This document shows, piece after piece, positions 39,583 to 43,586 of a DNA stretch of 64,000 bases (within the stretch, counting starts at the first letter, position 1; each line of letters begins with the position of its first letter). The DNA comes from an uncultured Erysipelotrichaceae bacterium. Lineage in GTDB: Bacteria > Bacillota_I > Bacilli_A > Erysipelotrichales > Erysipelotrichaceae. The stretch spans positions 1-64,000 of the forward strand of contig CAIFEQ010000006.1 of NCBI GenBank assembly GCA_903789495.1. The letters are read 5' to 3'. The notes beneath the pieces are model-generated. The model had not been told where the DNA came from. It made no database searches and saw only the letters and a program-made list of their open reading frames with translations. The position numbers and the translations under genes were made by a program.

Positions 39583-40839
39583 TCATTCGGCTCCGTCTCC
39601 GGCCGGTGTCCGGGCTGCCTTGCGCAGCAGCAGGAAGCCGATGATGAAGAGAACGCCCAGGATGGCAACGGCGACATTGATCGAACCCGTCACGCTGACG
39701 GTTGCCCCGACCAGCATGGTGCCCATGAAGGCTGCCCCCTTGCCGCAGATGTCATACAGGCCGAAATACTCACCGCTCTTCTCGGCCGGGATGATCCTGC
39801 CGTAGCAGGAACGGGACAGCGCCTGAATGGCTCCCTGGAAGACGCCGACCACAAAGGCCATGATGCCGAACTTCACCAGACTGTCCAGGAACAGGGCAAA
39901 GACAGCGACGAAGAAGTAGCCGCCGATACACACGGACAGCAGCGTGACGGAATCATAGCGGGAGGACAGTCTGCCGAAGAGGATGGCGAAGAAAAACGCC
40001 ACCACCTGGGTCAGCAGCAGAATGATGAGCAGACCGACGGTATCCAGTCCCAGCGCGGTGCCGATCGCCACGGCTTCGTCAATGATTGTGTAGACACCGT
40101 CAATGTAGAAGAAGAAGCCCAGCAGGAAATACAGAACCTTCCGCTCATGCTTTGCCATGTCCGCCAGCGTCTCGCCCAGCCGGGCAAAGGAAGCGGCAAT
40201 CCGGTTCCGGCTTTCTTCAATATAGTATTTCTGCTCGTAGGTTCTTAACAGCGGCAGAGACACCGCCAGCCACCAGACGGCTACGATCAGGAACCCCATC
40301 GCAATGGCCGTTTTCAGCGGCAGCGCCTCCAGATAGTAGCCGGCCACATACAGCACCAGGGCAGCCAGGAACGGCACGCAGGAACCCAGGTAGCCCCAGG
40401 CATAGCCCTGGGCGGAAACCAGATCCATCCGTTCCGGAGTCGTGATGTCCGTCAGCATCGAGTCGTAGAACACCAGCGACAGCTGATAGCAGACCTTGGC
40501 GGCGACATAGGTCAGCAGGTACAGACGCCAGTCCGGCGCCACGCCCAGGATCAGACAGCCGACGACCCCGATCAGCAGAACCGTGAGGAACATCGGCCGC
40601 TTATAGCCCCGGTTGTCCGCAATGGTGCCCAGGATCGGCCCCAGGATGGCGGTCAGGATCGTGGCGGCGCTGGTGGCATAGCTCCAGGCGGCCAGGTATT
40701 CGGCCTGCGAAAAGCCCGCCTGCTCAGCCAGGGTGTCAAACCAGATCGGAATCAGTGTCGAGACCATCATCGTGAAAGCGGAATTGCCGATGTCATAGTA
40801 AATCCAGGCTCTTTCCTGTTGGCTGAAGTTCTTGAACAT
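39583..40839 (-). CDS. MFS transporter, UMF1/Atg22-like
   Basis: A 418-aa membrane protein with about twelve helices. The N-terminus (ERAWIYYDIGNSAF) and the position of charged loops match the UMF1 (Atg22-like) branch of the major facilitator superfamily, whose yeast member exports amino acids from the vacuole. Bacterial substrates are mostly unknown. The start at 40839 follows AGGGGGAACC; the longer frame is rejected for lack of a site. No coupled enzyme gene. Confidence 0.88.
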   Translation of the reverse strand: MFKNFSQQERAWIYYDIGNSAFTMMVSTLIPIWFDTLAEQAGFSQAEYLAAWSYATSAATILTAILGPILGTIADNRGYKRPMFLTVLLIGVVGCLILGVAPDWRLYLLTYVAAKVCYQLSLVFYDSMLTDITTPERMDLVSAQGYAWGYLGSCVPFLAALVLYVAGYYLEALPLKTAIAMGFLIVAVWWLAVSLPLLRTYEQKYYIEESRNRIAASFARLGETLADMAKHERKVLYFLLGFFFYIDGVYTIIDEAVAIGTALGLDTVGLLIILLLTQVVAFFFAILFGRLSSRYDSVTLLSVCIGGYFFVAVFALFLDSLVKFGIMAFVVGVFQGAIQALSRSCYGRIIPAEKSGEYFGLYDICGKGAAFMGTMLVGATVSVTGSINVAVAILGVLFIIGFLLLRKAARTPAGDGAE

Positions 40840-41004
40840 ATGGTTCCCCCTGTCTCTACCACATTCTGCGCGCCTGATGTATGAAGCGGGCAAAGCATGC
40901 ATTAAATTTCTGTAAACCTATTCTAGCAGGCCGCCGTCCTGTCCGGTAGTTTTTTGCCGGCGGGTTGATTACAATAAACGCGTAGGACGAAGGGAGAGAT
41001 GAGG

Positions 41005-42687
41005 ATGGAAAAGCCATTGATCTGGGCCCATCGGGGTGCCAGCGGCTATCTGCCGGAAAATACCCTGCCGGCGTTCCAGAAGGCAGTCGATCTGGGGGCG
41101 GACGGCATCGAACTGGATGTCCAGCTGACAAAGGATCATCAGCTGGTCGTCATTCATGATGAAACCATTGACCGCACCAGCAACGGGACGGGCTATGTGA
41201 AGGATTACACGCTGGAACAGCTGCGGAAGTTCAACTTCAACCGGACTCATCCGGAGTATGAACATGCAGACATACCGACCATGCAGGAAGTCTTCAGTCT
41301 GATCCGGCCGACGGATCTGACCATCAACATCGAACTGAAGACCGGCCTGTTTGACTATGAGGGCATCGAGGAGCAGATCGTTGATCTGACTAAGAAGAAC
41401 GGCATGGAAGACCGCGTCATCTACTCTTCCTTCAACCATTATTCCATTGCCCGGATCCGGCAGCTGGATCCCCAGGCCCATACCGCCTTTCTGACCTGTG
41501 ACGGCAGCATCGATCTGCCCGCCTACGCCAAGGCCCATCAGGTCCAGGCCCTGCACCCGGTTTTTGCCCATCTGCGCTATCCCGGCTTCCTGGAACAGTG
41601 TCAGGAAGCGGGTCTGGAGGTCAACGTCTGGACCGTCAACACGGCCGAGCAGATCCGGCTCTGTCAGAAGAGCGGCGTGCATGCCATCATCACCAATCTG
41701 CCGGATTACTGCCGGCAGGTGCTGGATGATCTGGTGCTGTCCCCTGCCTATCAGCACTATGTCGACACCCAGATCACACCCTTCCTGCAGAACTGTGTCG
41801 TTCCCCAGGATCTCTTCAATACCGAGGATGGCCTGCGGCTGCGTCTCTACACCGCCATCCATCCGCAGGAAAAAGCCAGCCTGATCATGGTGCACGGGTT
41901 CGGAGAATTCTTCGGCAAGTACCATGAGACCGCCTGCCGGCTGTATCAGGAAGGCTATTCCATCTGCTTTCTGGAACTGCGGGGACACGGCGATTCCCAG
42001 CGGGCAACCTCCTATGCGGATTCCCGCATCAGCGTCACCAGCATGCAGGAATATGTCTCCGATCTGCGCTCGGCCGTCCAGCAGGTGCGCAATCAGTCTC
42101 AAAGCGGCCGGCTGTATCTGTTCAGCCATTCCATGGGCGGCTGTGTCAGCGGTCTCTATCTGGAACAGTATCCGGAGGATTTCCGGTGTGCCGTACTGTC
42201 CTCACCGATGCTGAAGCTCAACTTCTCCGGCTATCCCGATGCCCGGGTCCGCCTCTTCCGGCTGCAGACCAGGCTGAAACGCAGTGTGGATGACTATGCC
42301 CCGGGGCAGGGGCCCTTCACCGGGAAGTATGATCTGGAGCACAGCTCCGACATGGATGCCGACCGCTACCGCTACCAGTTTGCCCTGCGTCTGGAAAACA
42401 GGAACTATCAGACCTGGGGCGGCACCTGGGCCTGGATCCGCGCCGCTCTGGACGGCACGGAGGAAGTTCTTGCGCATGCCGACCGGGTCCGTACCCCGGT
42501 TCTGGTCTGCCAGGCCGGCGAGGATGCCATGGTCGACAACGACGGTCAGGTCAGCTTTGTCGGCCAGGCTCAGCACGCCTCACTGATCCGCTATCCCGGG
42601 GCCAAGCACGAACTCTTCGATGCCAGCGAGCCCATCCGGGAAAAGTGGTACCGCGATATCATTGCCTTCTATCATTCCTTCGACTGA
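41005..42687 (+). CDS. Fusion of glycerophosphodiester phosphodiesterase and alpha/beta lipase
   Basis: A 560-aa two-domain protein. Residues 1-240 are a GDPD TIM barrel: AHRGASGYLPENT with catalytic His9, metal ligands in GIELDVQ (Glu36, Asp38), VIHDETIDR with His51, and NIELKTG. From about 265 a monoacylglycerol lipase-type hydrolase follows: VHGFGEFFGKY (oxyanion loop), FSHSMGG with Ser376, Asp in GEDAMVD and His in GAKHELF. Together they could strip a lysophospholipid or glycerophosphodiester of both head group and acyl chain. No signal peptide, so cytoplasmic. The second of two ATGs (41005) fits AGGGAGAG best. A GDPD-like gene follows. Confidence 0.92.
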   Translation: MEKPLIWAHRGASGYLPENTLPAFQKAVDLGADGIELDVQLTKDHQLVVIHDETIDRTSNGTGYVKDYTLEQLRKFNFNRTHPEYEHADIPTMQEVFSLIRPTDLTINIELKTGLFDYEGIEEQIVDLTKKNGMEDRVIYSSFNHYSIARIRQLDPQAHTAFLTCDGSIDLPAYAKAHQVQALHPVFAHLRYPGFLEQCQEAGLEVNVWTVNTAEQIRLCQKSGVHAIITNLPDYCRQVLDDLVLSPAYQHYVDTQITPFLQNCVVPQDLFNTEDGLRLRLYTAIHPQEKASLIMVHGFGEFFGKYHETACRLYQEGYSICFLELRGHGDSQRATSYADSRISVTSMQEYVSDLRSAVQQVRNQSQSGRLYLFSHSMGGCVSGLYLEQYPEDFRCAVLSSPMLKLNFSGYPDARVRLFRLQTRLKRSVDDYAPGQGPFTGKYDLEHSSDMDADRYRYQFALRLENRNYQTWGGTWAWIRAALDGTEEVLAHADRVRTPVLVCQAGEDAMVDNDGQVSFVGQAQHASLIRYPGAKHELFDASEPIREKWYRDIIAFYHSFD

Positions 42688-42690
42688 AGA

Positions 42691-42711
42691 AAGGGGCGCC
42701 CGCCCCTTTTT
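42691..42711 (+). terminator. Terminator after the GDPD-lipase fusion gene
   Basis: AAGGGGCG / CGCCCCTTTTT just after the stop codon. Confidence 0.75.
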
Positions 42712-42797
42712 CGGTTCAGACAGACGCCCGGATCTGCAGGTACCGCCGGATTCCGGCGCTGTCTACAATGAAAGAAAGCATAAGGAGGAATTCTGTC

Positions 42798-43550
42798 ATG
42801 CGGAAACCACTACTCTGGGCCATGCGCGGCGATTCCGTACACTGTCCCGAAAATACCATGGAGGCCTTCCGGAAAGCCATCGAAGAAAAGGCGGACGGCA
42901 TCGAACTGGAAGTGCAGATGTCCATGGATGAGGTCCCGGTCGTCATCCACGACGAAAAAATCGACCGGGTGGCCGAACTGGGCACCGGTTTCGTCAGAGA
43001 CTACGCCCTGGATGAACTGAAGGATCTCAACGTCGGCAATGCGGATCTCGATGTGCCGGTCGCACAGATCCCGACCCTGGATGAGGTGCTGGAACTGCTG
43101 GAGCCGACGGCACTCACTCTGGAAATCGAACTGCGCACCGGTGTGGTGCACTACCCGCACATGGTCGACAAGGTCCTGGAACTGCTGAAGGCGCATCATA
43201 TGGAAGAGCGGACCATCCTGGCTTCCTGCAACCGTTCGACCATTGCCGAGATTCAGGAAAAGGCCCCGGCCATGAAGACCGCCCTGATCTTCGATCAGGA
43301 ATCGGACGACACCGTGGCCTATGCGGCGGCCCATCAGATTCCGTTCGTCCAGCCGCATCTGAACTTTGCCGGCGATGCCTCCTTCCGGAAGAAATGCGCT
43401 GAGAAGAATCTGGAAGTCATCTTCTGGCCCTGCCTGATCGAGAGTGATATCCATATCGGGGTCGATCAGGATGCCTATGCGATCCTGGTCAGTGATCTCG
43501 ATTTTGCCAGGTTCGTCATCACCCGCTACTACACGCAGCATAATCTCTGA
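42798..43550 (+). CDS. GDPD-family protein lacking the first catalytic His
   Basis: A 250-aa GDPD-fold protein that aligns without gaps to the start of the neighbouring fusion protein. Yet the first catalytic His of the HRG motif is Met9 (WAMRGDSVHCPENT), metal ligand Asp38 is Glu (GIELEVQ), and the Lys of the NIELK motif is Arg (EIELRTG). His51 (VIHDEKIDR) remains. The enzyme is therefore probably inactive on ordinary glycerophosphodiesters, or has changed chemistry. The start follows AAGGAGGAATTCTGTC, a strong site, so the gene is likely expressed. Confidence 0.88.
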   Translation: MRKPLLWAMRGDSVHCPENTMEAFRKAIEEKADGIELEVQMSMDEVPVVIHDEKIDRVAELGTGFVRDYALDELKDLNVGNADLDVPVAQIPTLDEVLELLEPTALTLEIELRTGVVHYPHMVDKVLELLKAHHMEERTILASCNRSTIAEIQEKAPAMKTALIFDQESDDTVAYAAAHQIPFVQPHLNFAGDASFRKKCAEKNLEVIFWPCLIESDIHIGVDQDAYAILVSDLDFARFVITRYYTQHNL

Positions 43551-43557
43551 ATCCGAT

Positions 43558-43586
43558 CGCCATCCTGTCCGGGATGGCGTTTTTTT
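43558..43586 (+). terminator. Terminator after the GDPD-like gene
   Basis: CGCCATCC / GGATGGCG followed by TTTTTTT. The tail touches the stop codon of the convergent prepilin peptidase gene. Confidence 0.85.

Follow-up and report, generated by a model that had tools for sequence, protein, structure and literature searches.

Background

Glycerophosphodiester phosphodiesterases (GDPDs) are enzymes of lipid recycling and carry the active-site motif HR-(X)n-EN-(X)n-ExD-(X)n-HD (available text of PMC4926365). Matched by motif to the numbering of the 250-residue protein described here, the phosphate is contacted by the equivalents of His9, Arg10, His51 and Lys113, the metal is held by those of Glu36, Asp38 and Glu111, with the two histidines proposed to act in acid-base catalysis (available text of PMC8749416). 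In Staphylococcus aureus LpgD, the H51A mutant has lower but still significant activity on LPG and is as active as the wild type on the cyclic LPA intermediate; the E78A and H93A mutants are deficient in LPG hydrolysis, and the residues matching His51 and Glu36 of the present protein are described as important for both steps (available text of PMC10404611). LpgD numbering is converted by an offset of 42, with its His51, Glu78 and His93 corresponding to His9, Glu36 and His51. For fission yeast Gde1, the H810A-R811A, E845A-D847A and H860A mutants suppress toxicity much as gene deletion does, a phenotype that the authors take as loss of catalysis (available text of PMC8749416). The T. tengcongensis enzyme, ttGDPD, loses its activity when any one of its three metal ligands is changed to alanine, a result of others that is cited in the available text of the P. 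furiosus GDPD paper (PMC4926365).

Pseudoenzymes are a known kind of protein. The C-terminal domain of Pho81, a eukaryotic multidomain protein, is GDPD-derived and has a non-enzymatic or unclear role. The plant SHV3/GDPDL proteins are similarly derived from GDPDs and have non-enzymatic or unclear roles, but they are eukaryotic and multidomain, and GDPDL1 hydrolyses glycerophosphodiesters according to a review, so that the GDPDL group is no clean pseudoenzyme (available text of PMC6726743). Searches of an open-access collection of papers showed no description of a bacterial pseudo-GDPD.

Gene and gene neighbourhood

The window is the whole stretch of DNA that was analysed, 64,000 nucleotides from an uncultured Erysipelotrichaceae bacterium. 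The features considered here are the following.

39583..40842, minus strand, putative MFS-type membrane transporter (type read from sequence alone), divergent from the GDPD-hydrolase gene
40999..42687, plus strand, fusion of an intact GDPD at residues about 1-245 with an alpha/beta-hydrolase domain (Hydrolase_4, S33/lysophospholipase-like); Pfam GDPD 1.4e-53, Hydrolase_4 6.8e-44
42689..42711, plus strand, terminator-like hairpin and T run between the GDPD-hydrolase gene and the next gene; fold -15.5 kcal/mol, z -2.09
42782..42788, plus strand, ribosome-binding site AAGGAGG, nine bases 5' of the ATG, read from the sequence
42798..43550, plus strand, GDPD-fold paralogue, 250 aa; Pfam match, alignment, AlphaFold model and Foldseek
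43558..43579, plus strand, intrinsic terminator 3' of the paralogue; consensus scan, fold z -2.69

The open reading frame of the paralogue runs on the plus strand from the ATG at 42798 to the stop at 43550 (250 codons). The initial annotation described its frame and ribosome site as well kept, and this holds, with AAGGAGG placed nine bases before the start of an uninterrupted frame. Codon adaptation is 0.708 in frame, within the range of ten neighbouring genes (0.63-0.74), and drops to 0.285 and 0.245 when the two remaining forward frames are read. An AlphaFold model computed with 62 aligned sequences as input has a pLDDT of 95.0 and a pTM of 0.92. The codon usage and the confident model indicate a real, folded protein, and a misread start or frameshift artefact is ruled out by the codon use, the ribosome site and the model.

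Since a hairpin with a T run precedes the gene and another follows it, the paralogue probably forms its own transcription unit. The upstream hairpin suggests separate transcription of the GDPD-hydrolase gene and the paralogue and argues against strict co-transcription of the two; it is absent from the consensus terminator scan, which lists 43558..43579 only. A promoter scan found no sigma-70-like promoter for the paralogue.

The preceding gene had been called an intact paralogue. Its GDPD catalytic set (H9-E36-D38-H51-E111-K113) is indeed intact, but the gene encodes a GDPD-alpha/beta-hydrolase fusion and is thus more than a plain paralogue. The hydrolase domain is lysophospholipase/monoacylglycerol-lipase-like, and in other members of the genus the two domains are separate adjacent genes. 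The pairing of a GDPD with a lipase suggests stepwise deacylation and headgroup release. The transporter and GDPD-hydrolase pair is kept in ten of 14 genus loci examined, and the transporter is possibly one for glycerophosphodiesters or their products. No counterpart of the paralogue was found in these 14 loci, where the GDPD-hydrolase gene occurs.

Fold and active site of the paralogue

The protein matches Pfam GDPD (PF03009, E = 4e-29) over residues 10-230, and the best PDB match of the model in Foldseek is the T. tengcongensis GDPD (2pz0, TM-score 0.89), so that both the profile and the modelled barrel place it among GDPDs. The active-site motif, however, reads MR...EN...ExE...HD. The protein is therefore a GDPD by fold and homology, yet without the motif that defines active enzymes. 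In the structural alignment with 2pz0 (31% identity) the barrel, Arg10, Glu36, His51 and Glu111 are shared, whereas the catalytic His9, the metal-ligand Asp38 and the phosphate-contacting Lys113 are replaced.

The initial annotation named Met9, Glu38 and an Arg for the NIELK Lys (Arg113 here) in place of His, Asp and Lys, and all three are correct: His9, Asp38 and Lys113, and also Phe144, are present in all 61 relatives of a 62-row alignment. These relatives were picked from 115 loci, excluding near duplicates and one sequence with an internal stop. Among 118 tblastn pieces from the 115 loci, position 9 is His in 114, Met in two that are the paralogue itself and lacking in two that stop short; position 38 is Asp in 115 and position 113 is Lys in 114. 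The earlier list was incomplete, as S142A, F144C and H146R accompany H9M, D38E and K113R. The SSFNH motif is thus altered to Ala142, Cys144 and Arg146, and the VWTVN segment is also changed. Arg10, Glu18-Asn19, Glu36, His51-Asp52 and Glu111 are retained (numbering checked by script), and the metal-ligand triad Glu, Asp, Glu becomes Glu36, Glu38 and Glu111, still three acids with Asp replaced by Glu.

Deviations at conserved sites were compared between the paralogue and the other rows. The paralogue deviates at ten of 46 highly conserved columns, with three of these deviations among the seven catalytic or metal residues; the other 61 rows together show 86 deviations at conserved columns and none at the seven residues (Fisher p = 0.0008), that is, 0 of 427 cells changed as against 3 of 7. 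A comparison with the four rows that come next in divergence, where 0 of 31 changes are catalytic, gives p = 0.011. Within the paralogue, the catalytic columns show no significant excess over the other conserved columns (3/7 versus 7/39, p = 0.16). By these values, the gene evolves fast throughout and, unlike similarly diverged relatives, has been freed from catalytic constraint. Catalytic residues are lost (three of seven changed) and the fold, as modelled, is retained, which is one mark of a pseudoenzyme.

A glutamate in place of Asp38 is a milder change than an alanine. Considered with the LpgD, Gde1 and ttGDPD mutants, this means that the paralogue may be inactive, slow or active in the second step only. 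In the last case His51, the three-glutamate metal site and Arg10/Arg113 would hydrolyse cyclic glycerophosphate or cyclic lysophosphatidic acid, with the cyclizing step slow for want of His9. The engineered parallel is LpgD H51A, which likewise has no His9 equivalent, folds, is stabilized by Mn2+ and still carries out the second half-reaction, being wild-type-like on cyclic LPA with reduced but significant activity on LPG (available text of PMC10404611). Retention of His51 and Glu36, whose LpgD equivalents matter for both steps, and the preservation of charge by D38E and K113R agree with such an activity. LpgD H51A is nevertheless a laboratory mutant with the rest of its active site intact, whereas the paralogue also carries D38E and K113R; Asp38 is a metal ligand that is invariant in the 61 relatives, the SSFNH and VWTVN segments are altered as well and this organism has no known source of a cyclic substrate. 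We consider an enzyme of the second step alone unlikely.

A phosphodiesterase that is still active, but on another substrate or with another metal and with different residues standing in for His9, would be compatible with the finding that the His9 equivalent is not absolutely essential in LpgD (available text of PMC10404611) and with a pocket that is mostly kept. The residue set of the paralogue, however, is found in no relative, and the Gde1 alanine mutants resemble the deletion (available text of PMC8749416), which makes this activity distinctly unlikely.

Distribution and origin

No orthologue of the paralogue turned up among 272 family genomes, 70 of them from the genus. Matches at E<=1e-51 come from its own genome only, with none among the 271 other family genomes, and the nearest homologues are ~40% identical. 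The same 272 genomes were searched at the DNA level for HRG...(P/A)ENT motifs in which the His codon gives way to one whose first base is other than C, a pattern that is blind to degenerate copies lacking the PENT motif. It returned 29 rows, the paralogue and 28 others judged by reading frame and context, and the paralogue alone reads as a GDPD with a residue other than His at this position. With a codon starting with C in this pattern, all but about ten (counted by eye) of the matches listed carry His codons. A conserved pseudoenzyme lineage of this gene within the genus was thus sought in the family genomes and not found. A phage or mobile origin is likewise unsupported, as the viral_contigs collection held no match and phage and plasmid records yielded distant GDPDs only.

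In the tree, the branch of the paralogue is long, at ~2 changes per site where the median is 0.25. A first tree was built from the 62 rows with 195 residues or more and was likely affected by long-branch attraction; a second omitted nine of them (five degenerate and four long-branch). Grouping of the paralogue with the neighbouring GDPD is not rejected (p-AU 0.294), and its descent from a duplication of the neighbouring gene is neither rejected nor established.

Purifying selection on the gene is unproven, and the gene may have arisen recently and be in the course of being lost. A slowly decaying relict, a duplicate whose constraint is relaxed but whose frame is still free of stops, would account for the very long branch, for the lack of a match at the above threshold in the other family genomes and for changes scattered over conserved sites. 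Decay fits poorly with about 60% protein divergence accumulated without a stop or frameshift, and with normal codon use, a good ribosome site and terminator and a well-formed model; its probability appears low.

GDPD-like barrels elsewhere in the genus

A lipase domain is present in 43 of the 70 genus genomes at E<=1e-40. In all 41 assessable genomes a GDPD barrel lies directly before the lipase or is fused to it, 38 of these barrels being canonical (His9 codon) and three degenerate; coordinates were paired by eye, and the remaining two genomes (G021 and G006) are unassessable because the locus lies at a contig edge. A degenerate GDPD-like barrel of 220-225 residues occurs in four species, G006, G019, G020 and G060, at the loci listed next.

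L173:6906-8588; L172 from 4801; L176 from 1501; L174:4447-5106, degenerate GDPD barrels of four related species

The G006, G019 and G060 barrels share 79-89% identity with that of G020, and identity to the canonical GDPDs aligned is 19-27%. The HRG, ExD, HD and IELK positions are replaced, so that essentially every catalytic residue is gone, and the two copies scanned gave no Pfam match. The model of the G020 barrel is GDPD-like (pLDDT 90.5, TM 0.74 to 2pz0_B), although its input alignment includes canonical GDPDs and the model may lean on them. In G019 and G020 the barrel lies a few bases 5' of an intact lipase. Values of dN/dS are 0.22-0.35 (six pairs, four species), and in the one pair measured for both the lipase has 0.038 versus 0.217 for the barrel. 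The degenerate barrels are relaxed yet constrained.

These barrels resemble the paralogue in belonging to the same genus, in their GDPD ancestry, in the loss of catalytic residues and in adjoining an intact lipase. They differ from it in being far more degenerate, in being placed before the lipase and in being common to several species. GDPD barrels in this genus can thus outlive their own catalysis.

The genome of the paralogue contains a second GDPD-like frame on another contig (G000 contig 9, L171:1533-2186, plus strand). This stand-alone frame (217 aa) has lost essentially every catalytic residue, gives no Pfam match and has no lipase beside it; its codon usage is normal, with a codon adaptation of 0.694 in frame.

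Proposed role

The initial annotation proposed a pseudoenzyme with a regulatory or binding role. Its first part is plausible on sequence grounds: the canonical catalytic set is lost, the gene is intact and its product foldable, and pseudo-GDPD barrels occur elsewhere in the genus. It is tempered by the family-genome search, which yielded no orthologue with Met9, Glu38 and Arg113, by LpgD, which keeps activity without the His9 equivalent, and by D38E and K113R, which keep charge. As to function, a non-catalytic partner or ligand-binding barrel is the reading that we rank first, because barrels of this genus outlive catalysis beside a lipase; we hold it tentatively, at just short of an even chance, since the long branch, the hairpin between the two genes, the LpgD mutant and the lack of a significant excess of changes at catalytic sites count against it. 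A natural half-reaction GDPD dedicated to cyclic glycerophosphates, in a genus where the lipase-adjoining GDPD barrel became a non-canonical partner more than once, seems quite improbable.

The protein is a real, fast-evolving GDPD paralogue that has lost the canonical two-histidine arrangement but retains its barrel and the greater part of the metal and phosphate pocket. As a non-catalytic barrel, it would most likely be without useful glycerophosphodiester turnover. The barrel may bind glycerophosphate or a metal and may either associate with the adjacent GDPD-lipase or compete with it for ligand, and in this way would tune the recycling of phospholipid headgroups. Here we infer expression, loss of activity, ligand binding and contact with the neighbour alike.

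Arguments about GDPD catalysis have rested on point mutants made in the laboratory. If the assignment is true, a naturally occurring protein without the first-step histidine but with the second-step histidine would allow the half-reactions to be studied separately. The GDPD-lipase pairs of this genus in which the barrel is free of catalysis yet constrained suggest an unrecognized non-catalytic role of the barrel, and such proteins would pass as plain phosphodiesterases in annotation or go unrecognized.
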